Source of the DNA: Yoonia maritima
GTDB taxonomy: Bacteria; Pseudomonadota; Alphaproteobacteria; Rhodobacterales; Rhodobacteraceae
Length of the DNA: 64,000 bases
Assembly (NCBI RefSeq): GCF_002933395.1
Contig: NZ_PKFN01000008.1
Span: forward strand, 496,001 to 560,000
Direction: 5' to 3'
Position 1 is the stretch's first letter; each line of letters starts with the position of its first letter. Shown here piece by piece: positions 9,136 to 30,712 of this stretch. The notes under the pieces are model-generated. The model made no database searches. It saw only the letters and a program-made list of their open reading frames with translations, and was not told the origin of the DNA. The translations under genes were made by a program, and so were the position numbers.

Positions 9136-9198
9136 ACTGAGGGAGATCAGGCCCCGGCAAGATCTCGCTACCCAAAAAAGGCCCGCTGCAGGCGCGCT

Positions 9199-9229
9199 GC
9201 AAACAAAGTTTGCGTAATTGCGCCTTCCT
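9199..9229 (+). other. putative oriT nic region (MobQ type)
   Basis: A perfect 6-bp inverted repeat (gcaaac-aaa-gtttgc, 9199-9213) is directly followed by gtaattgcgccttcc. This matches the layout of MobQ origins, where an inverted repeat precedes a conserved TAAnTGCGCCCT nick core, as recalled for RSF1010 and the Ti plasmid oriT. It lies between the divergent relaxase and TraD-like genes. A second small hairpin (caggtt/aacctg, 9244-9259) is next to it. The exact nick position is inferred. Confidence 0.75.
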
Positions 9230-9348
9230 ACCTCTCGGGTCGTCAGGTTGTGAAACCTGCTCCTACGATCTCGCATGCGAAAAAAATGAAGCGACCGGCA
9301 ACCTCGGGCGCGACTTCCCCTTCAGGACCCCAACGAAAGGTAACAACA

Positions 9349-9736: not shown

Positions 9737-9889
9737 TCGTAGCAGGAGCACGGACACAAGGGGCGGTTGCAGCGGCTCCCAAAGGCAAAACAAAATACCT
9801 ACCAGCAATTGAACCACACCCTAAACATGTGAATAGTGAGGAAAATAATTTCAGCCATCTGGCGGGCACGCGCCAGGAAGGAACATCAG

Positions 9890-11410
9890 ATGACAATCGA
9901 AAAGACGCTCTTCGCTGCGGCGGACAAGATGCGCGGCTCCATGGACCCGGGCGAATACAAGCACGTGGCCTTGGGCCTGCTGTTTCTGCGCTACATCTCG
10001 ATTGCCTTTCAACGCAAGTATGATGAGCTTCTGCCAGAGGGCCAGGAGGTGGCCGATGATGTCGATGAATATATGGCCGAAGGCATCTTCTGGGTGCCCG
10101 AGGCGGCCCGCTGGCGGACCCTGTCGGCGCAGTCCAAGGACCCCAAGATCGGCGTCAAGGTGGACGACGCCATGCGCGCCATTGAGGCCGAGAATGACCA
10201 GCTCAAAGGCGCACTCCCCAAGGTATTCGGCCGCGAGGCTCTGGGCAGCCATGTCGTCTCCGGCCTGATCGACCTGTTCTCGAACATCGAGTTCGAAGGC
10301 ACCCGCAAAGACTTCGACCTGATCGGCCGGATCTACGAATACTTCATCTCCGAATTCGCCAGCAACGAGGGCAAGCGCGGCGGCGACTTTCACACACCCA
10401 AACCCGTGGTTGAGCTGATCGTCGACATGATCGAACCGATGAAGGGCCGGATGTATGAGCCTTGCTGCGGATCCGGATCGTTCATGGTGCATTCCGAACG
10501 CTTCCTTGATCACCACGCCGGACGGCGCGAGGATCTGGCGATCTACGGGCAGGAACTCAACCACACCACCTATGGCCTTGCCCGCATGAACCTTGCCATT
10601 CGTGGCATCGTGGCGCGCATCGAATGGAACGATCAGGGCACGCTGCTGCGCGATGCTTTCCCGGACGAAAAATTCGACTTCGCAATGGCCAACCCGCCCT
10701 TCAACATCTCTGACTGGGGCGGCGGCATTCTGGCCGAGGATCGGCGCTGGACATTCGGCACGCCCCCGGTCGGCAACGCCAACTTTGCCTGGATGCAGCA
10801 CATCTATGACAAGCTGGGCAGCACTGGCATCGCAGGCGTGGTGATGGCCAACGGCTCCATGTCGTCGATGTCAGGGGGCGAGGGCGACATTCGCCGTGCC
10901 ATGGTCGAGGGCGGCGCAGTGGATGCCATGGTCGCCCTGCCGGGGCAGCTGTTCTACGGCACGCAAATTCCGGCCTGTGTGTGGATCCTGGCCAAGGATA
11001 AATCCAACGGCATCGCCAAGGATGCCAAGCTGCGCGACCGGCGCGGTGAGGTGCTGTTCATCGACGCCCGCAAGATGGGCGCGTTGGTGGCTGGGTCTCG
11101 CAAGCAAAAGGAGCTGTCTCAGGACGAGATCGCGCGCATCGCCGCCGCCTATCACGCATGGCGGGGGGAGCCGGACGCAGGCACCTATGAAGACGAGCCG
11201 GGCTTTTGCAAGGCGGCCACGCTGGAGGAGATCACCAAGCACAACTTTGTGCTGACCCCGGGTCGCTATGTCGGCGCAGGCGCAGCAGAGGAAGACGCCG
11301 AGCCTTTCGAGGAGAAGTTCGAGCGGCTGACGGCGGAGTTGAGGGCGCAGTTTACCGAGGGGCGGCGGCTGGAGTCGGAGATTCAAGCGCGGTTGGAGAA
11401 ATTGACATGA
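9890..11410 (+). CDS. hsdM: type I restriction-modification DNA methyltransferase subunit HsdM
   Basis: N6-adenine methyltransferase subunit that works with HsdS to modify, and with HsdR to restrict, DNA. The ATG at 9890 (MTIEKTLFAAADKM) follows an AGGAAGG; the frame upstream is discarded. The HsdM N-terminal helical domain occupies ~1-150. The SAM-binding motif I is EPCCGSGSF at 190-198 and the catalytic NPPF at 268-271. Length 506 is normal. The stop overlaps the hsdS start (ATGA), beginning a chain of five tightly coupled genes. Expression may be influenced by the inverted repeat at 9699-9736. Confidence 0.97.
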   Translation: MTIEKTLFAAADKMRGSMDPGEYKHVALGLLFLRYISIAFQRKYDELLPEGQEVADDVDEYMAEGIFWVPEAARWRTLSAQSKDPKIGVKVDDAMRAIEAENDQLKGALPKVFGREALGSHVVSGLIDLFSNIEFEGTRKDFDLIGRIYEYFISEFASNEGKRGGDFHTPKPVVELIVDMIEPMKGRMYEPCCGSGSFMVHSERFLDHHAGRREDLAIYGQELNHTTYGLARMNLAIRGIVARIEWNDQGTLLRDAFPDEKFDFAMANPPFNISDWGGGILAEDRRWTFGTPPVGNANFAWMQHIYDKLGSTGIAGVVMANGSMSSMSGGEGDIRRAMVEGGAVDAMVALPGQLFYGTQIPACVWILAKDKSNGIAKDAKLRDRRGEVLFIDARKMGALVAGSRKQKELSQDEIARIAAAYHAWRGEPDAGTYEDEPGFCKAATLEEITKHNFVLTPGRYVGAGAAEEDAEPFEEKFERLTAELRAQFTEGRRLESEIQARLEKLT

Positions 11411-12711
11411 TGGAATGGGCCACAGTCGAACTTGCGAAAGTGGCCGATCTGACGGGTGGGCATGCTTTTAAGAGTTCCGAGTATAGTGAAACCGGGATGG
11501 CGGTTCTTCGTACGCTCAATATCAGGGATGATTGCAGTGTCGACCTTTCCGATCCTAAGTATATTCCTCACGTCTTGGTTCCTGCCTATGAGCGCTTCGC
11601 TCTTCAAAAAGATGACACTCTATTTGTGATGGTGGGCGCGACTCTTGGTAAAGTGGGTCTTATTCGCGCAAAAAACCTGCCCGCATTGCTAAACCAGAAT
11701 ATGTGGCGGATTCGAGCTAAGCCGGGAAAAGTTGACCCGATGTATCTGCATTACTGCTTTAGGCACTTCTGCATCGGCCCTCTTGAGTGGATGTCAGGTT
11801 CGGCACGTGGGTTTGTCAGGCGTGATGACTATCGAACGCTCGAAATTCCCCTGCCGTCACGGTCAGAGCAACAACAGATCGCAGCAATCCTCGGCGCTCT
11901 CGACAACAAGATCGAGCTGAATCGCCGGATGAGCGCGACGTTGGAGGAGATGGCGCGGGCGCTCTATCGGTCTTGGTTCGTGGATTTCGACCCCGTCCAC
12001 GCCCGCGCCCTCGGCCAATCCCCCGCCCACATGGACCCCACCACCGCCGCCCTTTTCCCCGACAGCTTCGGCCCCGACGGCCTGCCGAAGGGGTGGGCCT
12101 CTGTACCTTTATTGGACGTCATGGAGCTAATTTCTGGTGGAACGCCGAAGACCTCAGAGCCCAAATACTGGGGAGGCGATATCCCGTGGGCGAGTGCCAA
12201 AGATGTCAGTCAATGCGGTCAATCATTCTTGATTGGTACAGAGAGATCGATAACCCGAGCCGGTCTTGTTAAGAGTAGCACCAAGATTGTTCCGAAATTC
12301 TCGACCGTGGTTGTCGCGAGGGGGGCAACTACTGGGCGGGCATGTATGTTTGGCGATGATATCGCCATGAACCAGACCTGCTATGCGCTGCAATCCAGAC
12401 ATGGCCGACCTTTTTTCGCCAACTGCCTTTTCATGAATGAAGTCGTTGGCATCACGCTTGCCGCACATGGTTCTGTATTCGACACAATTACCACCAAGAC
12501 CTTGCAGGCTACAAATGTGACTGCGCCCACAGATGCACTGTCGCAAGCATTCGAAGAATTGGTGTCTCCGATGTTCTTGGAAACCCTCAACAGGACCAGA
12601 GAAAGCCAAACCCTCGCCACCCTCCGCGACACCCTTTTGCCTCGCCTCATGTCCGGAAACCTCCGCATTCGCGAGGCCGAAAAGCAGGTTGAGGAGGTTG
12701 TATCCGCATGA
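11407..12711 (+). CDS. hsdS: type I restriction-modification specificity subunit HsdS
   Basis: Recognises the bipartite target sequence for HsdM and HsdR. The ATG at 11407 overlaps the hsdM stop. Two target-recognition domains are visible: ~1-150 (beginning WATVELAKVADLTGGHAF) and ~225-400 (beginning WASVPLLDVMELISGGTP), each followed by a conserved coiled-coil spacer with RSEQQQIAAILGALDNKIELN in the first and a shorter TLATLRDTLLPRLMSG in the second. The second TRD has lower GC than hsdM, usual for exchanged specificity domains. Length 434 is normal. Its stop overlaps the next start (ATGA). Confidence 0.96.
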   Translation: MMEWATVELAKVADLTGGHAFKSSEYSETGMAVLRTLNIRDDCSVDLSDPKYIPHVLVPAYERFALQKDDTLFVMVGATLGKVGLIRAKNLPALLNQNMWRIRAKPGKVDPMYLHYCFRHFCIGPLEWMSGSARGFVRRDDYRTLEIPLPSRSEQQQIAAILGALDNKIELNRRMSATLEEMARALYRSWFVDFDPVHARALGQSPAHMDPTTAALFPDSFGPDGLPKGWASVPLLDVMELISGGTPKTSEPKYWGGDIPWASAKDVSQCGQSFLIGTERSITRAGLVKSSTKIVPKFSTVVVARGATTGRACMFGDDIAMNQTCYALQSRHGRPFFANCLFMNEVVGITLAAHGSVFDTITTKTLQATNVTAPTDALSQAFEELVSPMFLETLNRTRESQTLATLRDTLLPRLMSGNLRIREAEKQVEEVVSA

Positions 12712-13625
12712 TCGCTTCCGGTGACCTTCGGGCCTACCTCAGAGGTCTTTCACATCAGGTCTGGACTGACCAGAACGACGCGATCCAGCATAACTTTTGG
12801 CTGCAGGAAGTGACGATCACCGAGATGCTTTTACTTCGTATGGCGCGGGACCTGTCGCCACACGGATTGAAAATGAAAATGTTCTCCGGGAAAGAAGAAG
12901 GTGGAGAAACGAAAAAGGATGGCACTGTTGTAAAAGTAGGCAACGGTGCGGATTGGGAGTGGTTTGTCGAACTGCCTGACTGCAAGATTGGCTTTCGGGT
13001 GCAAGCCAAGCGTCTCTTTCCAACGCCGACCAAGCAGGGTGCATACAATAGCTTTCATGCTGGCGGGAAACAAATTGATCAGTTGATCAATGCTGCTGGG
13101 AAAATGAACCCCGTCTATGTTCTCTACAACCACAAATTTGCCAAGGACGCATCGCTGTTTTCGCGGTCAGTCAAGACCAACTGGTATGGGCGTAGCTCAT
13201 GGGGATGCTCTGTTGCAACAGCAGCCTTCATGAAAACCTTGAAAACAAATAAGCTTGCCGAGGTCTTTCCTGGTACGGTGCCATGGCATCGGTTTTTCGC
13301 GGTTGGAAACCATAGCGTTCGAGGTTGCGCCGTCGAACGTATGATGAAGAACATGTTAGGTGGGCAAGAGTTTAAGACAAGGGACGACAGGCCCGATTGG
13401 GTGGATGATTTGCTCTCATTAGAGACGCCTATCCCGTCGGTGGATGAAGGGATCGAAGAACAGCCCACTGGGCGACTGCAAGATGGTCAGCCTTCGGATG
13501 CTGACCCAGTCTCTGCTCCCGACCAATCTTATGAAGCGCGAAGGGGTCGATTGACGGGCCTGTTGTCAGAGCGGGAGCTCCAGGGCGTCGCATATTTCGA
13601 TTTTACAAAATTCCAAGGTGATTGA
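12708..13625 (+). CDS. PD-(D/E)XK-like protein inside the type I operon, 305 aa (DUF6615-like)
   Basis: The ATG overlaps the hsdS stop and the stop overlaps the next start, so it belongs to the operon. Residues ~25-105 carry a nuclease-fold pattern: helix Glu34 (LQEVTITEML), Asp82-Trp-Glu84 in NGADWEWF, and Gln99-Ala-Lys101 in GFRVQAKRL. This resembles the DUF6615 group as recalled. The C-terminal ~70 residues are acidic and Pro/Gln-rich, probably disordered. It may be a nuclease, a restriction accessory or a second defence gene riding in the operon; which is unknown. It is not a standard type I subunit. Confidence 0.65.
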   Translation: MIASGDLRAYLRGLSHQVWTDQNDAIQHNFWLQEVTITEMLLLRMARDLSPHGLKMKMFSGKEEGGETKKDGTVVKVGNGADWEWFVELPDCKIGFRVQAKRLFPTPTKQGAYNSFHAGGKQIDQLINAAGKMNPVYVLYNHKFAKDASLFSRSVKTNWYGRSSWGCSVATAAFMKTLKTNKLAEVFPGTVPWHRFFAVGNHSVRGCAVERMMKNMLGGQEFKTRDDRPDWVDDLLSLETPIPSVDEGIEEQPTGRLQDGQPSDADPVSAPDQSYEARRGRLTGLLSERELQGVAYFDFTKFQGD

Positions 13626-14776
13626 TGTTCCAGATTGACCGTTCCGCCAACCGCCTGCGCAAGCTTGAACGCACCAGCTTTTCCGAAGTGGGGTTCCGAG
13701 AGAGGGAGCATCTGCAGGAATGGCTGGCCACCATGCCCGATGCGCTCTGTGAGGCAATGAGCGAGGGTGAGGATGGTCTGCTGATCATCCAAAAGGAATT
13801 TGACGGGTTCGACGGCACCCGCGAACGGCTCGACCTGCTGGCGCTGGACAAGAGCGGGCAGTTGGTGGTCATCGAGAACAAGCTGGACGATTCCGGCCGG
13901 GATGTCGTCTGGCAGGCTCTGAAATACGCCGCCTATTGCTCCAGTCTGAAAAAGGCCGAGATCGTAGGGATCTTTCAGCAGTATCTGGACCGTCACGGCT
14001 CCGGCGATGCCGCCAGCACCATCTGCGAGTTCCTGGGGGAGGATACGCTGGATCAGGTTGTCCTGAATGACGGCACAGATCAGCGGATCATCTTTATTGC
14101 CGCCAATTTTCGACGCGAGGTGACGGCGACAGTGCTGTGGCTGCGCGAACACCAGATCGACGCGCGCTGCATCAAGGTGATGCCCTACAAGTTCGAAGAA
14201 GAGCTGTTCATCGACCTGCAGCAGGTGATCCCGACGCCAGAGGCCGCAGACTATATGATCCGGATGGCCGAGAAGGACAGCGAGGAGAAGAATGCCAAAG
14301 GTGCGCAACGCTGGAGCCATCAAATGCGGATGGAGTTTTGGGAGCAGGCGCTTGAGGGCCTACGAGGGGCTGGCCTTGAGAGATGGCAGAACATCACACC
14401 GTCCAAAGATCATTGGGTGAACTCCAGTATAGGGGTGTCGGGTTGCACACTGACATTGATCTTCCTTCGCCACGAAGTTCGGGTGGAGTTCCAGCTCAAC
14501 CGATCCAGCCGCGAAGAAAATAAATGGCTGTTCGATCAACTGGCATCTGAGAAAGAACGCTATGAGGAGGCCGTCGGCGAACCGTTGGAGTGGCGACGGA
14601 TTGACGACAAAAAGGTCAGCATGATGGTCTGTAAGACGCCAGTTCAAGGGTACAGCAAAGAGCACTGGCCAGAGATGATCAAATGGCTGATTGAGCACTA
14701 TCAGAAGATGGATGCCGCATTCTCGGAGCCTGTTCGGTTGCTTGCCACGAAAATCCCTCAGGGCGGGGTGAGCTGA
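13625..14776 (+). CDS. DUF4268-type protein with N-terminal PD-(D/E)XK nuclease-like domain, 383 aa
   Basis: The ATG at 13625 overlaps the previous TGA. The N-terminal ~150 residues have a nuclease-like signature: RERLDLLAL (Asp70), VVIENK (Glu84, Lys86) and a downstream Gln97 helix, as in NucS- and RecB-like folds. The C-terminal region (~235-365, with [14 protein letters not shown] and [16 protein letters not shown]) matches DUF4268 as recalled. Such proteins are frequently found between hsdS and hsdR. The role is not established; binding or cutting DNA, or controlling restriction, are possibilities. The stop overlaps the hsdR start. Confidence 0.75.
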
Positions 14777-17700
14777 TGGCTTGGAACTCAGAATCCGACC
14801 TCGAAGACTGGATGATGGAAAAGCTGGTTGGGCTGGGATACTCGACCGCCTCTGGTGCTGAGATATCGCCCGAGAAGCGCGACCCTGAACGCCGCAGTTT
14901 CCATGATGCGGTATTGCGAAAGGTTCTGGCCAAGGCCGTACAACGGCTCAATCCGGATCTGCCGGATGGCGCGGTACAAGAGGTTGTGGCGCGTGTGACG
15001 GACGAGGTCTTTGCTGGTGACTTGATTGCAGAGAACCGCCGCCTGCACGGGCTCATGACACGGGGCGTACCGATCACCTACTTCAGTCAGGGAGAGGAGC
15101 GTAATGACCGTGCCCGCCTGGTGGATTGGGATGATCAGGAGAACGCCTGGCATGCCTTCAATCAGGTGGACATGGTCGGGCGGACGCCTCGGATCCCCGA
15201 TATTGTAATTTACCTGAACGGTCTGCCGTTGGTGGTGGTTGAATTGAAGGGAACCGAGGGTGCGAACATTGAATCGGCATTCAACCAGATCGAGACTTAC
15301 AAGCAGGACATCCCCAACCTGTTCCGAACCTCTCTGATTTCGGTGATTTCCGATGGTTTGAACGCGCGGTACGGGACATTATCGGCAGGGCTGGATCGCT
15401 ACATGCGTTGGAGGACTGTCGATGGCGAAACCATCCAGTCCGAACGCGAGGGGCTTGCCCTCAATACGCTCACTGAAGGCTTGCTCAATCGTGCTGTTCT
15501 ACTGGATCTATTGAGGTGGTTCGTCGTCTTTGAGGATGATGGAAAAGGGCCGATCAAGAAGGCGGCTGGATATCATCAATTTCATGCCGTCCGGAAAGCC
15601 ATGGCATCAATCCTGAGTGCGCGGAATGACGATGGTAAGGGCGGTGTTATCTGGCATACTCAGGGCTCCGGAAAGTCGCTGTTGATGACTTTCCTGGCTG
15701 GTAGGGCCATGCATCTGAAGGAGCTTGAGAATCCAACCGTCTTGGTGCTTACCGACCGCAACGACCTTGATAACCAGCTCTACACAACCTTTGGGCGCTG
15801 TAGGGACCTTCTGGGCGAAGACCCAACCCAGGCGGATAGCATTGATGATCTGAAGACCCTCCTTAACCGTCAGGTCGGGGGCATCGTCTTCTCGACAGTG
15901 CAGAAATTTCGACCGGGACGAGGCGAGACCTTCCCGGAACTCACGGATCGTTCAAATGTCATTGTCATGGTCGACGAAGCGCACCGCACGCAGTATGGCT
16001 TTGAAGCGAAGATGGATCAGATGACCGGCGAAGTCCGCCATGGGTTGGCTCATCACTTGCGCTCTGCCTTGCCAAATGCCGTCTATGTCGCCTTCACCGG
16101 GACGCCGGTTGAGTTGGTCGGCGCAAATACCCGATCTGTTTTCGGGGACTACATCGACGTCTACGACATTGCCCAAGCAGTCGAGGACGGTGCCACCGTT
16201 CCGATTTACTATGAAGGTCGAGTCGCCCGCGTGGAAATCGCCGATGACGTTCAGGAAAGCCTTGATGAGGAATTCGACGAAGCGACCGAGGCGCTCGAAG
16301 AAGACGAGGCAACGGCCACCGCAAAGAAATGGTCTCAGATCGAAAAACTCGTTGGTGCTGGGCCGCGCCTTGATGCAGTAGTCGAGGACATTCTCACGCA
16401 TTTTGATGCAAGGCTTGAAGCGATAGATGGCAAAGCCATGATTGTCTGCATGAGCCGCCGAATATGTGTCGAGGTTTATGATCGGATCGTTGCGGCGCAT
16501 CCCGATTGGCACTCCGACACAGACGAGACTGGTGCGATCAAAGTTGTCATGACTGGCAACGCAACTGATCCGTTGGCATTCCAGCAGCATATCAGGAGCA
16601 AGACGAAGCTGGAAGCGCTCCGCAAGCGATACAAGAACACCTCCGACCCGCTGAAACTCGTCATTGTTCGGGACATGTGGCTGACGGGGTTTGACGCGCC
16701 TTGCATGCATACGCTTTACGTCGACAAGCCCATGAAGGGCCACGGCCTCATGCAGGCGATTGCTCGGGTTAATCGGGTCTTCGCTGGGAAACCAGCCGGG
16801 TTGGTCGTCGATTATATCGGTCTGGCTGCTGATCTGAAGAAAGCCTTGGCCCATTATTCACAAGGTGACCAACAGCAAACCGGGGTGGATGAGAGAGAGG
16901 CCGTATCCGCGTTTTTGAGCGCCCTTGAAGTCGCACGCGGCCTTTTCCACGGTTTTGATTACTCCAGCGTTCTTGGTGGGACAGCAGCCGACCGTATCGA
17001 GATATTGCCTGCAGCGGCGGATCATGTGTTGACCAAGGCGCGTGAGGAAGGCCAGGAGGGAGACAAGGATTTCGGGAAGAGGTTCCATGATGTTGTCGCG
17101 GCTTTGGCGAAGGCATTCAAATTGGCCGCGGGATCGCCTGAAACTTCCAAACATGCCGAAGAGGTCGCCTTTTTCTTGGCGGTGCGCGCAGCCTTGCAAA
17201 AATTGGACGTGAAGGGTGGCGCAGGGCGCAATTCCTCGCCTGATTTCGCGATCGAACAACTGTTGAATCGAGCAGTGGCTTCCACCGAAGTGGTGGACAT
17301 ACTGGAGGCCTGTGGTTTCGATCGACCTGATATCAGTGTGCTCTCAGAAGAGTTTCTGCATGAAATTCAGAATATGCAGCACCGAAATCTGGCCGTTGAA
17401 GCTCTGAAGAAGCTTTTGAATGGTGAGATCAAGGCACGCACACGTGGCAACGTTGTTCAAAACCAAAAGTTCTCTGAGCGCCTCACCAGTGCAATTGCCC
17501 GGTATCACAATCGCAGCATCGACGCATTGCAGGTCATCCAGGAATTGATCGGGATGGCCAAGGATCTCAGTGCCGAGCCCGAAGATGACATGTCAGAGGC
17601 TGAGCGCAGCTTTTACGATGCTCTGGCGCAAAACGACAGTGCAGTCGAGGTCATGGACAATGACAAGCTCAAAATCATTGCTGCCGAGTTGGTCAAATCC

Positions 17701-17868
17701 CTACGTGACAACTCGGGCGTTGACTGGTGGCAGAGGGACGATGTCCGAGCGAAAATGCGCGTATCCGTGAAAAGGATATTACGGCGCTTTGGCTATCCAC
17801 CTGATCTTCAGGCTGACGCTGTCAAACTTGTCATCAAGCAAGCTGAGGCGATGGCGCGCATGATGTAG
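14776..17868 (+). CDS. hsdR: type I restriction endonuclease subunit HsdR
   Basis: ATP-dependent translocase and nuclease subunit. Domains in order: an N-terminal PD-(D/E)XK nuclease (Pro141-Asp142, then Glu156-Leu-Lys158 in VVVELKG), a superfamily 2 motor with Walker A GSGKS at 297-301 and DEAH at 400-403, then a helical C-terminal region contacting the methylase. Length 1030 is normal for this subfamily. The start ATG overlaps the previous stop (TGATG). It closes the operon. All catalytic motifs are intact, so restriction should be active. Confidence 0.97.
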
Positions 17869-18292: not shown

Positions 18293-18382
18293 GGAGACGT
18301 GGCCGAGTGGTCGAAGGCGCTCCCCTGCTAAGGGAGTAGGCGGGAAACCGTCTCGAGGGTTCGAATCCCTTCGTCTCCGCCA
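18293..18382 (+). tRNA. tRNA-Ser, anticodon GCU
   Basis: A complete 90-base serine tRNA: acceptor arms ggagacg and cgtctcc, discriminator G, and encoded CCA. The anticodon stem ctccc/gggag encloses ctGCTaa (anticodon 18327-18329), a long variable arm follows, and the T-loop is ttcgaat. The 5' half comes from the integrated element and the 3' half from the chromosome, as shown by the fragment at 1914. It decodes AGC and AGU. Confidence 0.97.
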
Positions 18383-18419
18383 GACCTCAATTTTATTCAA
18401 TTCCGTTGGTACCTATACA

Positions 18420-18440
18420 CCCCCTTATGGGGCTGTTTTT
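18420..18440 (+). terminator. probable tRNA-Ser terminator
   Basis: A short stem cccc-ttat-gggg followed by ctgttttt starts ~38 bases after the tRNA. The stem is only 4-5 bp, but the T-tract and position fit a rho-independent terminator. Confidence 0.5.
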
Positions 18441-18529
18441 GTTGATATATATGTATTCATTGTTGCTTTTCGTTTCTCTTCGATTAGACTCGTTTCTATT
18501 CATTTCGTGGTATAGATCGTGGTACTTTT

Positions 18530-18775
18530 ATGGCTGCTCTAGGCGGAAAGCTAACAAAGAATTTAGTCCGAACCCTCGGTCCCGGTCGCCATGGTGACGG
18601 GAACGGATTGTACCTCGTGGTCGATCCATCCGGTGCGAGACGCTGGATTGTACGCATCACAGTGAAGGGTCAACGCAACCGCGAAGGCAAGCCCCTGCGC
18701 ACCGACTTCGGGCTTGGTGGCGCTGACGTCGTGACGTTGAACGAAGCGCGTGACCGAGCCTTGGAATATCCTGCA
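18530..18775 (+). pseudogene. truncated P4-type tyrosine integrase (N-terminal arm-binding domain)
   Basis: About 80 residues of the N-terminal DUF4102-like domain of a P4-type integrase are intact (LGPGRHGDGNGLYLVVDPSG, then FGLGGADVVTLNEARDRAL). It lies ~150 bases from the tRNA 3' end, pointing away, the standard position for integrases using the tRNA 3' end as att. It breaks off near 18770 where sequence homologous to a metallophosphoesterase gene begins on the other strand; the remaining frame ends after seven unrelated codons. The SAM-like and catalytic domains are gone. This marks a second, decayed element on the right of the tRNA. Confidence 0.85.
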
Positions 18776-18884
18776 AGTTCCATTGATCAATAGGGCACAG
18801 GGCAAAGCGTCGATAGCTGTCATAGTGCAGGTCGCCGAGAACGACGATTTCGCCACTGTGATATGGGATGGTTTGATAATTCAT
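18767..18884 (-). pseudogene. truncated metallophosphoesterase (first ~38 residues)
   Basis: The frame starting at 18884 is nearly identical for ~38 residues to the intact metallophosphoesterase at 25959-26864 (both begin M.YQTIPYHSGEIVVLGDLH and reach IDQW.LQDI), then runs into the integrase fragment in antisense. Only the first metal motif (GDLH) survives. It follows the ATPase-like gene at 18895 with the same short gap as in the intact pair, so it is the remains of a second copy of that pair. Confidence 0.85.
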
Positions 18885-19683
18885 AGCGGCAACCTCAGTT
18901 CAGCATGGGCTGGCAGGCAAGCGTCTGTGCGCGGTCGAGCATGCGGCTCACCGTGCGAAGGCTCAGACCGGAATTTATGATCGCGCCACAATCAAAGACA
19001 TCCATCAAGGCAGCCATCGCAGGGGCTGGCAAGTCACGGCGTGCGCCCTCTTTCTTCGCAAAGTGACGAAGCTGGTCTGGCGTCAGGTCGGGCAGTTCCA
19101 AGACCGCACAGCGACTCTGCAGAGGCTCAGGCAGCCCCTGTCGGCTGTTGGCAGTCATCACCCAGTTCACCCAAGACATGTCACATTTGATCTGGAAAAA
19201 CGGGCACTCCCATGTTGCGGCAGTCATACGTTCAAGCAGCGGCAGCAAGGCGTCGGTCAACGCATGACGTGTGCCTTTGCTGGAATGGATGTCACCTGAC
19301 TTCTCGACCTCATCAACGATGACGAGAGGCCCACCATGGCGCTCCCGCAGGATTGTCTGCAGCAGCTTGCCCGGTGTCGCGTTGAACCAGCCGCGCTGGG
19401 ACCCGACGATACCAAATGCGGCCGGTTCCCCCGTCGCGTCGATCATAGTTGTTGGCACGGCAAGATGATGCGCAAGACGGCGAGCCCAGTGGCTTTTGCC
19501 GATCCCAGGGGAACCGACCAAAACGAGCGGAGAGAAACGAAATCCCGACAGCCCCTCGCGCGCCGATGCACGAAGCCCGTGCCAGACCGCTTCAGTTGCC
19601 AGTGCCATCCACGGCATTTCGGCGTGCAACGCGGCCGCGATCTCGTCAGCCTCGTGCTCGGTGACGATGCGGGCCACTGGCAA
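18770..19683. repeat. diverged direct repeat of 26745-27665
   Basis: About 915 bases here align to 26745-27665 in the same orientation, covering the start of the metallophosphoesterase and most of the ATPase gene. The homology ends sharply at both limits. By eye, identity is about 80%. Confidence 0.8.
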
Positions 19684-19839
19684 GCCGACCTCGATAGGCA
19701 AGTTGAGATGCTGCACCTGCAGCCCGCATTGCCGACATTCGCCGCGCGCGCACAATGCCTGAGGGTTCGAATTCACAGTTCGCGGACAAACCGCCATTTC
19801 GCTGCGGTTGCGCCAATGGCTGATTTCGACTGCGTTCAA
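18895..19839 (-). pseudogene. 5'-truncated copy of the AAA+ ATPase of the ATPase/metallophosphoesterase pair
   Basis: From about residue 53 (GLPVARIVTEHEADEI) to the C-terminus, ~260 residues align without gaps to residues 104-366 of the intact ATPase at 26874-27974. Walker A (GSPGIGKS), Walker B (VIVDE), sensor Asn (MTANS) and the Arg finger region (LQSRC) are kept. The normal first ~103 residues are replaced by unrelated sequence containing a dispersed repeat, and the partner phosphoesterase is truncated. A 314-residue product could be made, but loss of the N-terminal domain and partner makes function doubtful. Similarity to the intact copy is about 80% at DNA level, so this is not a recent duplication. 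Confidence 0.75.
19719..19741 (+). repeat. 23-bp dispersed repeat, copy A
   Basis: The string gcagcccgcattgccgacat and its next three bases occur exactly here and at 22108-22130, and a degenerate form occurs near 24900. It falls in the non-homologous head of the truncated ATPase gene. Confidence 0.6.
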
Positions 19840-21407: not shown

Positions 21408-22040
21408 ATGCATATGCCAAACTTACCGGCCATTCGCGCACTTCGTCCCGCTTGGAACAAAGGTCGCATCGTCGGTCAAAAGCTCCCGCTGAAACCCAAA
21501 CATGTCTGGGCCATCCGCGTCCGACTCGAATTGGCCGAGGACCATCGCGATCTGGCTTTGTTTAATATGGCCATCGACAGCAAGTTGCGCGGCTGCGACC
21601 TGGTCCGGATGAAAGTCGTGGATGTCATGGCGTCTGGGCAGATCAAAGCCCGCGCATCCGTACTGCAAAGCAAAACCCAAAAACCGGTTCGGTTTGAAAT
21701 CTCGGAGGGCACACGGGCATCGGTCGCGACGTGGATGAAAGACCCGCTGATGGTCGGGTCCGAATTTCTCTGGCCGGGGCGCTTCCACGAGCGACTTCAC
21801 ATCTCAACACGCCAATATGCCCGTATCGTGCGGGACTGGGTGTCGTCGATTGGGCTGGAGGTAACTGCTTACGGCACCCATTCTATGCGACGCACAAAGG
21901 TAACCCAGATTTATAAAAAGACGGGCAACCTGCGTGCCGTTCAGCTTCTGCTGGGTCACACCAAGATGGATAGTACAGTGCGATATCTTGGCGTTGAACT
22001 TGAAGACGCCTTGGCAATCGCGGAAGCTATTGAAATATAA
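21408..22040 (+). CDS. small stand-alone tyrosine recombinase, 210 aa
   Basis: A compact tyrosine recombinase consisting essentially of the catalytic domain. Visible residues: Arg in AIDSKLRGCDL (box I), Lys in VLQSKTQKPVRF, His..Arg in YGTHSMRRTKVT, His in LLGHTKMDS, and nucleophile Tyr in TVRYLGVEL. All six catalytic positions are present, so it should be active. The ATG at 21408, or a second at 21414, follows a GGAG. Short integrases of this kind are common on alphaproteobacterial plasmids and islands, where their targets are mostly unknown. Its neighbours are unrelated cargo genes. Confidence 0.85.
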   Translation: MHMPNLPAIRALRPAWNKGRIVGQKLPLKPKHVWAIRVRLELAEDHRDLALFNMAIDSKLRGCDLVRMKVVDVMASGQIKARASVLQSKTQKPVRFEISEGTRASVATWMKDPLMVGSEFLWPGRFHERLHISTRQYARIVRDWVSSIGLEVTAYGTHSMRRTKVTQIYKKTGNLRAVQLLLGHTKMDSTVRYLGVELEDALAIAEAIEI

Positions 22041-25586: not shown

Positions 25587-25919
25587 ATGAACCTGATAGA
25601 TTTCGCAAAACAGATGCCAAAAGACCAATCTGAACAGGATTTTGTCGATCGCCTGAAGCAGTTTGTTGATCTCGGCGAAATTGAACACCTGTCGAAAGCA
25701 GATCGTGACGCCTTGTTTGATACAGTGCAGTTTCTGACCGATTTCACCCTATTCGTTCGAGAAACTAAAGGCGATTTGGGGTCTCACGGGAGTGCTCCAA
25801 ACGTTGAGTATAGCGGACCGTTTATACCGAACGCCCTGACGCGACCGAGCGATGCTCCTCTAGATCTTTCGATCCTCCAAAACTTTGGCGTGGGCGCCGC
25901 CGACAAGTACTTGGGATAG
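25587..25919 (+). CDS. small hypothetical protein, 110 aa
   Basis: The ATG follows CCAGG at a short distance. The first ~65 residues are an acidic helical bundle (FAKQMPKDQSEQDFVDRLKQ); the rest is Pro/Gly-rich and probably unstructured. No family is recognised. It converges with the metallophosphoesterase gene, whose stop is 40 bases away. Confidence 0.5.
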   Translation: MNLIDFAKQMPKDQSEQDFVDRLKQFVDLGEIEHLSKADRDALFDTVQFLTDFTLFVRETKGDLGSHGSAPNVEYSGPFIPNALTRPSDAPLDLSILQNFGVGAADKYLG

Positions 25920-25958
25920 GATTGAAGTCTGGACCTATCTTCCCGCCAAAGCCATGGA

Positions 25959-26864
25959 TCATCCGCCGCCGCTTTTTACCGTTGCGGAATAGCTCTTCCA
26001 CAAAACCGCTTCCCGCAGGTATGAAACGGACTCATCGATCAGTTCACCTGCATATCCCACAGACACATTCCTGATATCCGTACCGTAAATTTTGGCGCGA
26101 AGCCGTCGATGGGAATGGGCAAAGAACCATGCGTCTGGACGATACTGAATGATCAGATCACTCATGTCCGAATGAAACGCGGCAGAGAGTGTATCTATCT
26201 CGCCAGCAACGGCAAGATGCGGTCCGTGATGCGTAATGATCACTGTCCGGCCATTGCTCCCCGAAGGATGCGGGTTGGCTAGGTTATCAGCAAGCCACGC
26301 CCGATGATCTTGATGAACACGGAGAATTTCTCTTGGCTCCAACCGGCGCTCTCGGCGCATAATTGGGATACGGTCGGCAGGCGTGCTGGGGTCCAGAGGA
26401 GCACCGATCATGTGATAGTCTGCCATGAGCAAGTCAGCAGTGTGCATAGCAACCGAGGGCTCGTCGGACAGGTTAAAATCGGTCCACAACGTGCAGCACA
26501 AGATGCGCGTATCACCATGCAGCAGAGCTGTTTTCTGTGCGAAATGTGCGTCCACGTCCTTCGCAACCCTTTCCAGCTTAGGGTCGTCGGTCAGATGGCC
26601 TGAATAATAATTGTGATTACCGGGCAGCGCATAGATCCGTTCGGGCCGGATGAACTCTGAAAGATACTGAAAAACCTGCGTCCAGCGGTCAGCAGGACCG
26701 TTTGTCAGGTCGCCTGCGAGGATCAGAGCATCGGCGTACCAAACGATGTCTTGCAGGGCCCATTGATCAATCGGGCTCAGGGCGAAACGGCGGTAGCTGT
26801 CATAATGCAGATCACCCAGGACAACGATTTCGCCGCTGTGGTACGGGATGGTTTGATATTGCAT
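25959..26864 (-). CDS. calcineurin-like metallophosphoesterase, 301 aa
   Basis: Dinuclear metal phosphoesterase with every motif intact: GDLH (D.H), GDLTNG, GNHNYY, THHGPH and AHSH near residues 16, 50, 82, 205 and 250. Length is typical. Such enzymes hydrolyse phosphodiesters in nucleotides or nucleic acids; the substrate cannot be read from sequence. The start is 9 bases after the stop of the AAA+ ATPase gene, so they form an operon. A second, broken copy of the same gene pair at 18.8-19.7 kb shows that the pair travels together. Confidence 0.9.
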   Translation of the reverse strand: MQYQTIPYHSGEIVVLGDLHYDSYRRFALSPIDQWALQDIVWYADALILAGDLTNGPADRWTQVFQYLSEFIRPERIYALPGNHNYYSGHLTDDPKLERVAKDVDAHFAQKTALLHGDTRILCCTLWTDFNLSDEPSVAMHTADLLMADYHMIGAPLDPSTPADRIPIMRRERRLEPREILRVHQDHRAWLADNLANPHPSGSNGRTVIITHHGPHLAVAGEIDTLSAAFHSDMSDLIIQYRPDAWFFAHSHRRLRAKIYGTDIRNVSVGYAGELIDESVSYLREAVLWKSYSATVKSGGG

Positions 26865-26873
26865 GGCGTGACC

Positions 26874-27974
26874 TCAGTTTAGCATTGGCGTGCAGGCCAA
26901 TGTTTGGGCGCGATCCAGCATGCGGCTGACAGTGCGCAGGCTCAGGTTGGCATTTTTGATAGCACCGCAGTCGAAGACATCCATCAGCGCGGCCATCGCG
27001 GGATCGGGCAAGCCTCGGCGCGCGCCCTCGGTTTCAACGAATTGCCGCGGTTGTACCGTCGTTAGGTCCGGCAAATTCAGAACAATACAGCGACTTTGAA
27101 GCGGCTCGGGCAACCCGTTGCGGCTGTTGGCTGTCATCACCCAATTGACCCAAGACATATCGCATTTGATTTGGAAGAACGGACATTCCCATGTCTCGGC
27201 TGTCATGCGTTCCAACAAGGGCAACAATGCATCGGTCAGGGTATGACGCGCACCATTCGTTGCTTGAACATTGCCCGACTTTTCCACCTCATCAACGATA
27301 ACCAATGGCCCGCCGTGGCGGTTTTGCAGAATGGTCTGCAACAGTTTGCCCGGCGTTGCGCTGGACCAGCCCCTTTGCGAGCCGACTAAAGCGAAGCTGC
27401 CCGGTTCGCCTGTCGCGTCAATCTTCGTCGTCGGCACCTCAAGATAATGGGCAAGACGGCGCGCCCAGTGGCTTTTGCCAATGCCGGGCGACCCAACGAG
27501 AACGAGAGGGTTAAATCGCAGTCCGGGCAGCCCATCCCGCGCCGAAGCCCGCAGTCCGTGCCAAACCGTTTCGGTCGCCGGTGCCATCCAAGGCATCTCG
27601 GCATGCAGGGCTGCCGCGATCTCGTCGGCTTCGTGTTCGGTGGCAATCTTGGCGATGGGCAACCCACCTCTGAGCGACGTGAGGCGAGCACGGTTCTCCT
27701 CGCTCAGATGGCGCATGCCTGTTGAGGAGTGCAAACAATCAAGGAACCGCATCGCGCGCCGTTTGATGCGGCGCTTATCGGCGTCATCGAGCAAGTCAAA
27801 CAAATCTACCCGATCGTCTTCCGCTATTCGACCGGCTTCGATCTCAGCACGTTGCGCAGCATCGCGGGTCGCCTTCAGGAATTTTTTCCATCGCGCTTCC
27901 ACGTCGCCTAATTTGGGCAAGTCATCGTAGAAGGTGAGGTTGTGAAACGGGATTTTGGATTGGGAGTTTGTCAT
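26874..27974 (-). CDS. Lon-like AAA+ ATPase without protease domain, 366 aa
   Basis: The ATG follows AAGGA at 8 bases. Residues 1-103 form a charged helical N-terminal domain. The AAA+ module has Walker A GSPGIGKS (161-168), Walker B VIVDE (225-229), sensor 1 in VMTANS (Asn283) and an Arg finger in PLQSRC (Arg295); the arrangement resembles the ATPase part of Lon, but no protease domain follows. The C-terminal ~65 residues are a helical lid. It is paired with the metallophosphoesterase. It might remodel or sense a target and license the phosphoesterase, but that is inference. Confidence 0.88.
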   Translation of the reverse strand: MTNSQSKIPFHNLTFYDDLPKLGDVEARWKKFLKATRDAAQRAEIEAGRIAEDDRVDLFDLLDDADKRRIKRRAMRFLDCLHSSTGMRHLSEENRARLTSLRGGLPIAKIATEHEADEIAAALHAEMPWMAPATETVWHGLRASARDGLPGLRFNPLVLVGSPGIGKSHWARRLAHYLEVPTTKIDATGEPGSFALVGSQRGWSSATPGKLLQTILQNRHGGPLVIVDEVEKSGNVQATNGARHTLTDALLPLLERMTAETWECPFFQIKCDMSWVNWVMTANSRNGLPEPLQSRCIVLNLPDLTTVQPRQFVETEGARRGLPDPAMAALMDVFDCGAIKNANLSLRTVSRMLDRAQTLACTPMLN

Positions 27975-28183
27975 GTCGGAGTCCTTTCATAGCGCAAGCA
28001 AGGCCTGCGCCGGCACCCGGAGATCGATAACAATCGGGCAACTGTTGATATGAAAGGTTCCGGAACCTCTGGAACACTTTGGGAACATCCGCGGAAATAT
28101 GGCAAGCCCCAGCTTATTAGAGCCGGTCAGACTTATCAGTGTTCACTGCAGAACAGCGAAAATATCGTAACTCATTGAAAATA

Positions 28184-28217
28184 TTAAAAAACCACCAACC
28201 TCAAGAAGGTTGGTGGT
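28184..28217 (-). terminator. rho-independent terminator after nrdJ
   Basis: Perfect 11-bp arms (accaccaacct and aggttggtggt) with a 5-base loop. On the minus strand the stem is followed by tttttaat. It lies ~85 bases beyond the nrdJ stop. Confidence 0.85.
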
Positions 28218-28301
28218 CATTTGATCTGTGCGGAGTGGTCAAAAAACACCCCATAGTGGCCAAGTTATAGGGTGTCTGACAACACTGAACTTAGCGTTTC
28301 A

Positions 28302-30584
28302 TTAAGAACACTTCGAATATCCGCACGACCCACAGGTCATACAACCCTCGACCATACGCAGGTCATACGACCCACAAGAGCCACAGGCTTTTCCACGTGG
28401 TTTGCTATTCAACGACACCACGTCTGCTTGAGGGTCGCTTTTTAGCCCCATGCCTTCGCCAGCTAAAAAGCCGGTTGCGATCATGTGCTTTTCGATTACG
28501 CCGCCGATCGCCGCGAGGATTGAGGGTACATATTTGCCCTGCATCCACGCTCCACCACGCGGATCAAAGACCGCTTTCAGTTCTTCCACAACGAATGACA
28601 CATCTCCGCCACGGCGGAACACTGCACTGATCATCCGGGTCAGGGCCACTGTCCAGGCGAAATGCTCCATGTTTTTGGAGTTGATAAACACTTCGAACGG
28701 GCGGCGGTGTCCAGCAATCACCAGATCGTTGATCGTGATGTAGATGGCGTGCTCAGAATCTGGCCATTTCAGCTTGTACGTCGCGCCTTCTAGCTCATTC
28801 GGGCGATCCAACGGCTCTGACATATAGATGATCTCAGACCCTTGGTCGCCTTCACGTACTTGCTCAGGAACCTCGGATGGCGATGCTTCGGATGATACGG
28901 ACAGAACGGAACCTGTCACGTCATTCGGACGATAGGTCGTGCAACCTTTGCAGCCTTGATCCCATGCGGCCATGTAGACCTCTTTGAAATCGTCAAAGCT
29001 GATGTCTTCGGGGCAGTTAATCGTCTTTGAGATCGAGCTGTCGATCCATTTTTGCGCTGCCGCCTGCATACGAACATGGTCAAGTGGCGCAAGCGTTTGT
29101 GCGTTCACAAAATAGTCCGGCAGAGGTGCGTCGCCCTTTAGGTCGCGCCACATCTGAACAGCGTAATCAACGACCTCTTCCTCGGTCCGCGACCCATCTT
29201 TTTGCAGAACCTTACGAGTGTAGGCATAGGCAAACACGGGTTCGATCCCGGATGATACGTTGCCAGCATAAAGGCTGATGGTACCGGTTGGCGCGATTGA
29301 AGTGAGCAGCGCATTTCGTATGCCATTTTGACGGATAGCATCACAAACATCATCATCCATGTCCTGCATTGCACCACTCGCCAGAAACTTGTCAGCGTCG
29401 AACAGCGGGAACGCACCCTTTTCCTTCGCCAAGTCCACTGACGCCAGATATGCGGCGCGGGCGATCGCGTGCATCCATTCGTCCGTCTGACGCGCCGCTT
29501 CTTCTGATCCATAGCGCAGGCCAACCATCAGCAATGCATCGGCCAAACCAGTGACACCCAGCCCGATACGACGCTTGGCCGCGGCCTCTTGTGCTTGTGC
29601 CTCAAGCGGGAACCGCGAGGTATCAACAACGTTATCCATCATGCGCACGGCGGTCGCGACCAGATCAGTCATCGCATCCGAGTCAAGCGCAGCACCAGCT
29701 TCAAACGGGTTGCTGACAAGGCGAGCCATGTTGATCGAACCCAACAGGCAAGCACCGTAAGGTGGCAAGGGTTGCTCACCACATGGGTTCGTCGCGGCAA
29801 TGGTTTCGCAGTAGTTCAGGTTGTTCATCTGATTGATGCGGTCGATAAAAATCACGCCGGGTTCGGCATAATCATAGGTCGACTGCATAATCGCATCCCA
29901 CAATTCGCGGGCTTGAACGGTGCGATATGTCTTGCCGTTGAACACCAAATCCCAAGGTCCGTCCGCCTTAACCGCGTCCATGAAGGGATCAGTAATCAGC
30001 ACAGACATGTTAAACATCCGCAGACGGGCTGCGTCGGATTTCGCCGTGATGAAATCTTCGACGTCAGGGTGATCGCAACGCATGGTCGCCATCATCGCGC
30101 CACGACGCGAACCTGCTGACATGATCGTGCGACACATTGCATCCCAGACGTCCATAAACGACAGCGGGCCAGAGGCATCCGCAGCAACACCCATTACCGA
30201 CGCGCCTTTGGGGCGGATGGTGCTAAAATCGTAACCGATCCCCCCGCCCTGCTGCATGGTCAGCGCGGCTTCCTTTAGCATGTCAAAGATGCCACCCATG
30301 TTGTCAGGCACAGTGCCCATGACAAAACAGTTAAACAGCGTCACAGAACGCGCTGTACCTGCACCTGCAGTGATCCGGCCAGCGGGCAGATATTTAAAAT
30401 CTGACAACGCGCCATAGAATTTTTCCTCCCAAACCGCCGGGTCTTTTTCGACCACAGCCAAAGATTTAGCGATACGACGCCATGTATCTTCGACCGTTTG
30501 ATCGATTGGCGTTCCATCTGCCTGCTTGAAGCGGTACTTCATATCCCAGATTTGTTCGGCAATCGGGGCGGCAAAAGCGGTCAT
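28302..30584 (-). CDS. nrdJ: adenosylcobalamin-dependent ribonucleotide reductase (class II), 760 aa
   Basis: Makes deoxyribonucleotides using adenosylcobalamin as radical source, so it needs no oxygen or second subunit. The ATG at 30584 follows AAGGA; a longer frame upstream is not used. Typical segments are LPAGRITAGAGT near 65-80, NCFVMG, QQGGGIGYDFS, SAGSRRGAMMATM, NPCGEQPLPPYGACLLGSINM near 275-295 and APTGTISLYAGN. The C-terminus has paired cysteines (ACGSCGSYDL..., MTCGSCGYSKCS) for redox exchange or zinc. A clear terminator follows. A NrdR-box-like site lies upstream. Confidence 0.95.
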   Translation of the reverse strand: MTAFAAPIAEQIWDMKYRFKQADGTPIDQTVEDTWRRIAKSLAVVEKDPAVWEEKFYGALSDFKYLPAGRITAGAGTARSVTLFNCFVMGTVPDNMGGIFDMLKEAALTMQQGGGIGYDFSTIRPKGASVMGVAADASGPLSFMDVWDAMCRTIMSAGSRRGAMMATMRCDHPDVEDFITAKSDAARLRMFNMSVLITDPFMDAVKADGPWDLVFNGKTYRTVQARELWDAIMQSTYDYAEPGVIFIDRINQMNNLNYCETIAATNPCGEQPLPPYGACLLGSINMARLVSNPFEAGAALDSDAMTDLVATAVRMMDNVVDTSRFPLEAQAQEAAAKRRIGLGVTGLADALLMVGLRYGSEEAARQTDEWMHAIARAAYLASVDLAKEKGAFPLFDADKFLASGAMQDMDDDVCDAIRQNGIRNALLTSIAPTGTISLYAGNVSSGIEPVFAYAYTRKVLQKDGSRTEEEVVDYAVQMWRDLKGDAPLPDYFVNAQTLAPLDHVRMQAAAQKWIDSSISKTINCPEDISFDDFKEVYMAAWDQGCKGCTTYRPNDVTGSVLSVSSEASPSEVPEQVREGDQGSEIIYMSEPLDRPNELEGATYKLKWPDSEHAIYITINDLVIAGHRRPFEVFINSKNMEHFAWTVALTRMISAVFRRGGDVSFVVEELKAVFDPRGGAWMQGKYVPSILAAIGGVIEKHMIATGFLAGEGMGLKSDPQADVVSLNSKPRGKACGSCGSYDLRMVEGCMTCGSCGYSKCS

Positions 30585-30712
30585 GGGATGATCCTTGTTT
30601 GATTCTGATGGGCTGCAGCGAGGCTGCAAAGCATAAGCGGTGAATGATTGAAAGCAAGGGCAGCGGCCCTACTTTCAGAATCGTGAACCCCGGTCTATAC
30701 CGGGATGATGAT

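Follow-up and report, generated by a model that had tools for sequence, protein, structure and literature searches.

Transposons of the Tn5053/Tn402 family carry the genes tniA-tniB-tniQ, and IS66 elements carry tnpA-tnpB-tnpC in that order; mobile elements can be protected from impinging transcription, and ClpX unloads the MuA transposase from its ends. Among Tn7-like transposons, the CRISPR-associated transposons CAST I-B2 and I-D use TnsD/TniQ to home on tRNA genes (Faure 2023, PMC10293859; Annual Review, PMC11406308). Here we analyze a 64,000-nucleotide stretch of the Yoonia maritima genome (contig NZ_PKFN01000008.1, positions 496,001 to 560,000; hereafter the window, to which coordinates refer unless another contig or locus is named), in which a gene for an AAA+ ATPase (AAA) and a gene for a calcineurin-like metallophosphoesterase (MPE) lie behind a ribonucleotide reductase gene. 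An earlier note on the window, which gave no strand, had described a Lon-like ATPase that lacks a protease and, 9 bases apart from it, a complete phosphoesterase, and our open reading frames (ORFs) and Pfam/NCBIfam profiles bear this description out: both genes are intact, on the minus strand and spaced by 9 bp. The features central to what follows are:

26874-27974, minus strand: AAA+ ATPase gene, 366 amino acids, with a Lon-type AAA module in the C-terminal two thirds and a helical N-terminal part, without a protease domain
25959-26864, minus strand: calcineurin-like metallophosphoesterase (MPE) gene, 301 amino acids, metal-binding motifs present
27972-28073, minus strand: predicted structured mRNA leader, in which CCUUUCAUA pairs with UAUGAAAGG (Shine-Dalgarno) around two inner hairpins
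28056-28067, minus strand: palindrome GGTTCCGGAACC, the first block common to modules at different targets, whose third pair covaries in relatives
28072-28086, minus strand: putative LexA/SOS box GTTCCCAAAGTGTTC, an exact match to the alphaproteobacterial motif GTTC-N7-GTTC
28212-28281, minus strand: transposon end TGTCAGACACC, which starts at 28281, 20 nt after the reductase stop, and contains repeats TTGGCCA, TTGACCA and ATGACCA
28302-30629, minus strand: host ribonucleotide reductase gene, the insertion target

The locus and its relatives share with the tRNA-homing Tn7-like transposons a fixed short insertion distance 3' of a tRNA gene, genes for TniQ, transposase and ATPase, end repeats, and tandem elements. 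They differ in that the targets are ribonucleotide reductase and tRNA-Arg genes in Rhodobacterales, that a Lon-like AAA+ gene with a putative SOS promoter and leader of its own lies inside the target-proximal end, and that a target duplication is seen in one Tn-type element only. With Tn5053/Tn402 they have in common the TniA-TniB-TniQ order (loci L085, L148 and L150), a 5-bp target duplication (Ruegeria) and TGT ends at many reductase loci, but insertion here is site-specific, TniQ is long (615-664 amino acids in three relatives scanned) and the AAA module is present. One further branch resembles IS66 in its GTAAGCG ends, 8-bp target duplication and TnpA plus TnpB genes (L116), but has AAA in the expected TnpC position, and no TnpC match was found inside the complete L116 element. 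We lean toward the view that AAA, with MPE as a frequent partner, is a damage-induced module that Tn7-like and IS66-like transposons carry as an accessory, rather than a free-standing defense system. What this analysis adds is the transposon setting together with the SOS box and the leader RNA; titles and abstract openings in the PubMed Central (PMC) literature searched on Tn7-like elements, TniQ, IS66, LexA/SOS and reductase insertion sites do not name an AAA-MPE module.

Results

AAA genes lie at fixed places behind host genes

Relatives of the window locus were the best 80 of 408 confirmed stretches, all from Rhodobacterales or Martelella, and with a contig from a viral collection (L161) they made 81 loci. 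These were annotated with the reductase and DUF1489 neighbor of the window and with the HisG/Z, TniA/B/Q, IS66 TnpA/B, DUF6634 and MPE proteins of the loci. Upstream of the AAA match we found the 3' end of a reductase gene, on the same strand and at most 700 bp away, in 28 of the 80 relatives, a tRNA-Arg gene in 13 (7 TCT, 6 CCT), and an IS66 TnpB gene in 12, with TnpA also present in 10; the reductase was farther off in 2 relatives, and 25 had other surroundings. In the 28 loci the AAA match begins 313-572 nt behind the reductase stop; some matches begin inside the protein, and the genes may start earlier. Behind tRNA-Arg it begins at 292-323 nt in 15 loci (the 13, a copy on contig C11 of this genome, and L069), and in 14 of the 15 this point is the start codon of AAA. 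In all of these placed loci AAA reads inward, away from the host gene.

That 28 of 80 relatives sit directly behind the reductase gene could suggest that AAA is a housekeeping accessory of this enzyme, a reading that we regard as barely tenable. AAA lay within 1.1-1.5 kb behind the reductase in only 1 of 14 same-genus reductase loci, that of the window genome, a transposon end intervenes, and tRNA-Arg genes and IS66-like elements have the same module. Same-genus genomes rule out a core accessory of the reductase. Six of them (L171, L172, L174, L175, L181 and L186) have a convergent gene directly after the reductase, a FecCD-type permease by eye, which was absent from the window when three of the six versions were used as query. 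At other same-genus loci (among L170-L181 and L186) different sequences resembling transposon ends were seen by eye behind the reductase stop. Because the same-genus 3' ends vary and AAA is present at 1 of 14, the reductase 3' end is a shared insertion hotspot and AAA is not a core gene. The earlier note had looked to a fixed syntenic place as the mark of a core gene; the places are indeed fixed, but as attachment sites of transposons. In L111 a short stretch ~240-420 nt ahead of the opening of the AAA frame resembles, by eye, the final codons of the reductase gene, as would be the case if the element had copied its target or taken it along.

AAA is the first gene inside Tn7/Tn5053-like ends

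Of 31 loci (28 near and 2 far reductase loci plus the window), 17 have the motif TGT..RAC at 18-26 nt behind the reductase stop. In three control windows taken from these loci the count was 0 of 31 each time; the motif had been read off the same loci beforehand. The other 14 reductase loci have different sequences behind the stop, some of them end-like by eye, and tRNA-Arg loci of the Tn type have two further end types. A complete element was found in Ruegeria intermedia, assembled from two overlapping loci of one contig. It is 15,268 bp long, with ends TGCCAAAGCAACCAGAA and the 5-bp target duplication GTTGC, and runs tRNA-Arg(CCT), end, AAA, TniQ (reverse), GmrSD and other cargo, TniA, TniB, end. 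A second element, which also opens with AAA and TniQ, abuts it, and the last three bases of the right GTTGC copy are the first bases of that second element; elements also stand side by side in L148 and L150 by eye. In the Ruegeria element and in L085, the Mu-transpos_C, AAA_22/TniB and TniQ profiles scored over their cut-offs, as did rve in L085, with rve under its cut-off in Ruegeria. Tn7-like transposons in the strict sense encode a TnsA endonuclease; a 289-residue ORF before TniA had no Pfam match. Tni genes were present in 18 of the 81 loci, within the flanking DNA examined. In a sample of 295 genomes of the family (AAA and MPE positives at E <=1e-20; AAA counts are lower bounds, with at most six candidates scored per genome), AAA was found in 9 of 19 TniQ-positive genomes compared with 26 of 276 TniQ-negative genomes (p 7e-5).

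Judged from these sequences, AAA comes first behind the target-proximal end in Tn7/Tn5053-like (TniA-TniB-TniQ) elements, which insert just downstream of ribonucleotide reductase or tRNA-Arg genes. Its position at the end that adjoins the attachment site, the occurrence of tandem elements, and the job of TnsC, an AAA ATPase, in Tn7 (Benler 2021, PMC8649781) would fit a protein for target selection or target immunity, TnsC- or TnsE-like. We consider this role improbable, because the complete element has a separate TniB-type ATPase as well as TniQ, because the AAA fold is Lon-like, and because closely related AAA genes stand at different targets, as in Silicibacter lacuscaerulensis, where L096 (reductase) and L098 (tRNA-Arg) share 93% DNA identity. 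The same point emerges from a quick tree of 80 AAA proteins (83 collected; L103, L127 and L133 dropped at under 150 amino acids), a tree with many long branches and SH-aLRT values only. Target classes are mixed in it, with 13 changes among reductase, tRNA-Arg CCT, tRNA-Arg TCT and IS66, which argues that AAA is not the target selector; only 2 changes fall between Tn-type and IS66-type.

A second branch of AAA lies behind TnpB in IS66-like elements

The left ends of the IS66-type loci read GTAAGCG or GTAACCG. One complete element, from Phaeobacter sp. B1627 (L116), is 3,808 bp long, with ends GTAAGCGTTGCAT and the 8-bp duplication GACCAATC, and carries TnpA, TnpB (confirmed by Pfam), AAA, an ORF and a UvrD-like fragment in that order; by hand count, AAA starts 1 nt after the TnpB stop, where TnpC would be expected. 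The other 12 IS66-type left ends scanned yielded no right end, so that 1 of 13 is complete with its duplication. With one TnpC query, no match was found in 11 of 15 IS66-type loci, L154 and L135 being covered for 1.2 kb downstream only, and the matches in L130, L131, L124 and L062 lie 4-10 kb from AAA. These arrangements place a second AAA branch behind TnpB, usually TnpA-TnpB, in IS66-like elements. The idea that the AAA-MPE pair is an IS66 passenger was rejected, as it holds for this one branch only (12 of 80 loci). Some loci have MPE upstream of AAA and DUF6634 downstream; our PMC literature search found no mention of DUF6634/PF20339. On a Ketogulonicigenium vulgare plasmid (L060, 4758-9676) a cluster runs DUF6634, TnpB, MPE, AAA, DUF6634, MPE.

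A LexA box and a palindrome precede the AAA gene

Shared DNA among modules begins at a common point. When AAA genes from different targets were compared, DNA similarity started in 14 of 14 cases (non-independent pairs) at, or at most ~20 bp before, the palindrome GGTTCCGGAACC, ~92 bp before the AAA ATG; in the window the SOS box directly precedes it. Because the shared DNA begins at the palindrome whatever the target, the module has been exchanged between elements with different ends.

GTTC-N7-GTTC is given as the LexA motif of alphaproteobacteria in PMC3323433, and GTTC-type LexA sites and LexA control of recA are reported for Roseobacter in PMC6473078. The exact box was present in 21 of 82 upstream regions, whereas 200 two-letter shuffles averaged 0.68 and never exceeded 5, although relatedness makes these counts non-independent. 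By class, it occurred in 12 of 29 reductase loci, 5 of 7 tRNA-Arg TCT loci, 0 of 2 far-reductase loci and 4 of 25 others. In this genome the same motif also precedes the profile matches to recA, at 94 nt, and to lexA, at 29 nt. The spacing between SOS box and palindrome is fixed across loci at 18-20 nt, which we judge to be a stronger point than any single site. The AAA upstream region thus carries a LexA operator motif, from which LexA-dependent induction is predicted. An EcfG (general stress) promoter was considered and rejected: GGAAC is present, but the spacing to the -10 element does not suit the consensus.

A predicted leader RNA pairs with the Shine-Dalgarno sequence

Of 30 leaders folded singly, 27 have a minimum-energy structure in which the CCUUUC (or CCUCU) that follows the palindrome is base-paired to the GAAAGG (or AGAGG) Shine-Dalgarno sequence; this pairing is missing in the folds of L103, L105 and L111. 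Fold z-scores vary from near zero (-0.07 in L093, -0.01 in L105) to strong (-5.4 in L084). Single folds supplied the three-way junction, whose pairs were afterwards counted on an unfitted alignment, a plain MAFFT alignment of 26 leaders with 23 pairs, 500 shuffles and slid controls. Paired cells reached 76% against 68.1 in shuffles, cells with a double change 58 against 31.4, and the covariation score 0.248 against 0.139, each with 0 of 500 shuffles as high; slid controls scored at most 0.128 for covariation, and lean in the junction's favor because it was chosen from single folds. The Shine-Dalgarno helix hardly varies, 4 of its 8 pairs never, and most of the covariation comes from the inner helices. 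When RNAalifold was run on the MAFFT alignment, it recovered the stem of the palindrome and a part of the third helix but not the Shine-Dalgarno helix.

A model built from the 26 leaders gave 39 matches in 37 of 90 sources, 37 of them at AAA starts and 2 of them weak antisense overlaps. The matches at AAA starts comprise the 26 used for training and 11 new ones, four of which, at E 0.003-0.03, lie in distant AAA genes. In this genome the model found two intact copies only (150 of 1149 candidates scored). Rfam gave no match on the leader in the interval 25900-28400, with one sub-threshold snoRNA match at 28257-28354. These folds and counts support a leader RNA in which the Shine-Dalgarno sequence is paired, and which is predicted to hide the ribosome-binding site.

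Double repression, by a LexA box and a hidden Shine-Dalgarno sequence, is what one would expect for harmful products, and several AAA/MPE copies per genome occur; both would suit an SOS-induced toxin or addiction module that retains the element in its lineage. We think this very unlikely, since no antitoxin-like small gene is constantly linked, the candidate ORF of 110 residues near the pair having relatives in only 4 other loci (L149, L109, L134 and L120; 46-52% identity).

Protein features and copies in the genome

The AAA protein matches Pfam AAA (1.4e-9), and its best NCBIfam relative is Lon (2e-16, over the AAA part of Lon and far under the model cut-off). Its closest PDB sequence profile is the Lon AAA domain (E 6e-25), and a confident predicted model (predicted local distance difference test, pLDDT, 88.9) has Lon as best fold match (E 3e-16). 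Profile scans and the model show no Lon protease domain; the protein ends after the AAA module. Of the closest known proteins, Lon and ClpX, Lon is the best match in sequence and fold; AAA differs in lacking the protease domain and in having an N-terminal part of its own. Lys167, Asp228, Glu229, Asn283, Arg295 and Arg347 are invariant in an alignment of 21 sequences.

The MPE protein matches Pfam Metallophos (5.1e-11), and its motifs D18-x-H20, G51-D52, G82-N83-H84, H212-H213 and H250-x-H252 are invariant in 7 sequences. Its similarity to Mre11/SbcD is weak (profile match E 0.0025, fold match E 0.02, the AlphaFold2 model having a pLDDT of 65 and being too poor for a statement on fold), and no Rad50/SbcC-like partner was seen.

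The earlier note had also placed a diverged second pair 7 kb away, broken at a junction. We confirmed this: it retains AAA residues 101-366 and only the start of MPE. Further features of the window are:

18895-19692, minus strand: truncated second AAA copy, residues 101-366, 82% identity
18766-18884, minus strand: truncated second MPE copy, N-terminus only, first ~40-46 residues
25587-25919, plus strand: small ORF of 110 amino acids, without a Pfam match, whose membership in the module is uncertain

In the truncated copy (18766-19692) the MPE part runs into the N-terminus of an integrase (Arm-DNA-bind_3) 3' of tRNA-Ser(GCT) at 18293-18382. The tRNA-Ser(GCT), integrase N-terminus and truncated MPE at 18293-18793 look like a rearranged second island, and the idea of integrase-borne cargo was rejected, as this tRNA-Ser integrase belongs to that separate island. 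A third copy of the pair, intact, lies on another contig of the genome (G000:C11:309902-311913; AAA 77%, MPE 76% identity), directly behind tRNA-Arg(CCT). With the intact window pair and the truncated copy, the genome thus has the pair three times, and not at one site only. Elsewhere in the genome lies a remote relic of AAA, interrupted by a stop (C8:50087, 39%).

The same variable region of the window holds a type I restriction-modification operon (9836-17868, plus strand) with M, S, a weak DUF6615-like ORF, a PDC-S11/DUF4268 gene and R. Further genes of mobile elements, a MobA/MobL relaxase and two phage-integrase-type recombinases, lie to the left of the pair at 8191-9276 (minus), 4444-5568 (minus) and 21408-22040 (plus).

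MPE is a recurrent but loosely linked partner

In the 295-genome sample, AAA was present in at least 35 genomes and MPE in 17; the other genome of the same genus had neither. MPE occurred in 12 of the 35 AAA-positive and in 5 of the 260 AAA-negative genomes (p 5e-9), and the link between AAA and MPE is real but loose. By profile, MPE was near AAA in 14 of the 81 loci (a cruder clustering put 16 loci in the MPE cluster). In alignments read by eye it was intact in L082, L083, L087, L088, L102, the window and the C11 copy, whereas L081, L093, L096, L098, L103, L133 and the truncated window copy have it in shortened or broken form or have only its start. MPE is a recurrent, often decayed and dispensable partner of AAA. 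The earlier note had held that the pair moves as a unit. It is mobile, sits in integration hotspots, and is sporadic and co-occurring at p 5e-9, which agrees with that claim, but the near presence of MPE in only 14 of 81 loci and its frequent decay do not.

Beyond the 80 relatives, weaker AAA matches were found in 130 plasmid records, all under 60% identity, and 5 of them cover most of the protein; IMG/VR held one closer relative (L161, 53%) and six distant ones, and all 9 phage records with a match were under 30%. Arrays of neighboring MPE genes were seen, three in G234:C27 (L017/L026/L029) and two in G135:C11 (L027/L028).

The distribution bears on the alternative that the pair is defense cargo, in which AAA would act as sensor of phage or of damaged replication forks and MPE as the enzyme that cleaves nucleic acid or a nucleotide, the Tn7-like elements being merely carriers. 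Sporadic occurrence and SOS control are compatible with such a role, and defense genes are reported as enriched cargo of Tn7-like elements (Benler 2021, PMC8649781). The elements of relatives carry GmrSD, a Gabija-like OLD/UvrD pair and type I restriction-modification genes by eye; in L082 the OLD/UvrD pair stands between MPE and TniQ, with the restriction-modification genes beyond TniQ. We nevertheless hold this alternative to be possible but rather unlikely. A PADLOC scan of the pair gave weak partial matches only (AAA to PDC-M37B, 6.5e-5; MPE to PDC-S10, 4.5e-4), and MPE is dispensable. Furthermore, AAA has the same place and orientation in elements with several end types and from two transposon families, where cargo would be expected to vary; for this reason we favor a function in mobility or maintenance over defense. 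A defense or conflict system, as the earlier note proposed, is thus the less likely reading: the known defense genes, GmrSD and the Gabija-like pair, are cargo of relatives' elements, and a free-standing two-gene system was rejected on the weak PADLOC matches and the 14 of 81 loci.

Discussion

The fixed places, the transposon ends, one complete element of each kind with its target duplication, and the LexA box can all be read directly in the DNA, and they suggest the following mechanism for a damage-induced transposon module. LexA would keep AAA (and MPE) off in healthy cells, and the leader would keep read-through transcripts from the adjoining host gene untranslated. DNA damage would release LexA and open the promoter, whereupon a Lon-like ring without protease may remodel or unload a nucleoprotein complex, most likely a Mu-type transposase on its ends, in the way that ClpX acts on MuA, and MPE, of Mre11/SbcD type by weak similarity, may trim DNA or phosphate ends. 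Among the papers listed in our PMC literature search none held the phrase "impinging transcription"; two concern Hfq control of IS10 and Tn5.

Several observations weigh against this reading. First, the biochemical task of AAA is assigned by analogy. Second, a complete Tn-type element with a target duplication was found in 1 of 47 stretches scanned within ~10 kb, and AAA was seen at 0 of 21 TniQ loci of the family sample, within the at most 1.5 kb examined, which suggests that AAA is an accessory not needed for transposition in general. The 13 target changes in the AAA tree count here as well. Third, in the window itself only one transposon end was found: no Tni match was seen there, and a search by end motifs and target duplication did not find the far end. 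A search of the genome, run without a positive control, gave no TniB match, and one distant TniQ lies elsewhere. Because TniB and the far end were not found, the window copy looks stranded, though its genes and control region are intact. The distant TniQ protein, of 610 amino acids (L189, 8645-10477, minus strand; G000:C9:854749), has five neighbors that were scanned, none of them TniA- or TniB-like. Fourth, the SOS box was found in 0 of 7 tRNA-Arg(CCT) loci, including the C11 copy, and in 0 of 12 IS66 loci, and the motif is not enriched genome-wide (119 sites, compared with 174 for a reversed control pattern), so that a single site proves little. Finally, two measures of leader covariation were not significant: pairs with a double change numbered 14 against 11.7 in shuffles (51 of 500 as high), and further pair types 35 against 32.8 (130 of 500 as high). 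These two are the measures least sensitive to relatedness, and those of the other kind can be exceeded through relatedness alone; the two non-significant measures make us slightly more cautious about the bolder reading that follows.

A bolder form of the transposon-module reading can be offered only tentatively, as something we would rather doubt than assume. AAA, sometimes with an Mre11-like nuclease, would form an undescribed module of two unrelated transposon superfamilies, a Lon-like unfoldase under LexA and RNA-switch control that serves a damage response via the element's own transposition complex or arrested forks. The leader would then be a new class of regulatory RNA, and AAA would replace a transposase partner in IS66-like elements that lack TnpC.

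Neighborhood alone is insufficient for calling island gene pairs defense systems, and this pair is a case for caution. For the Rhodobacterales, the analysis names two attachment sites of Tn7-like elements, behind ribonucleotide reductase and tRNA-Arg genes, and supplies a complete element for further work as well as a candidate for a new regulatory RNA. An unexplained gene pair thereby becomes a testable statement on how site-specific transposons may be controlled behind host genes, by a damage promoter and a leader that would hide the ribosome-binding site.

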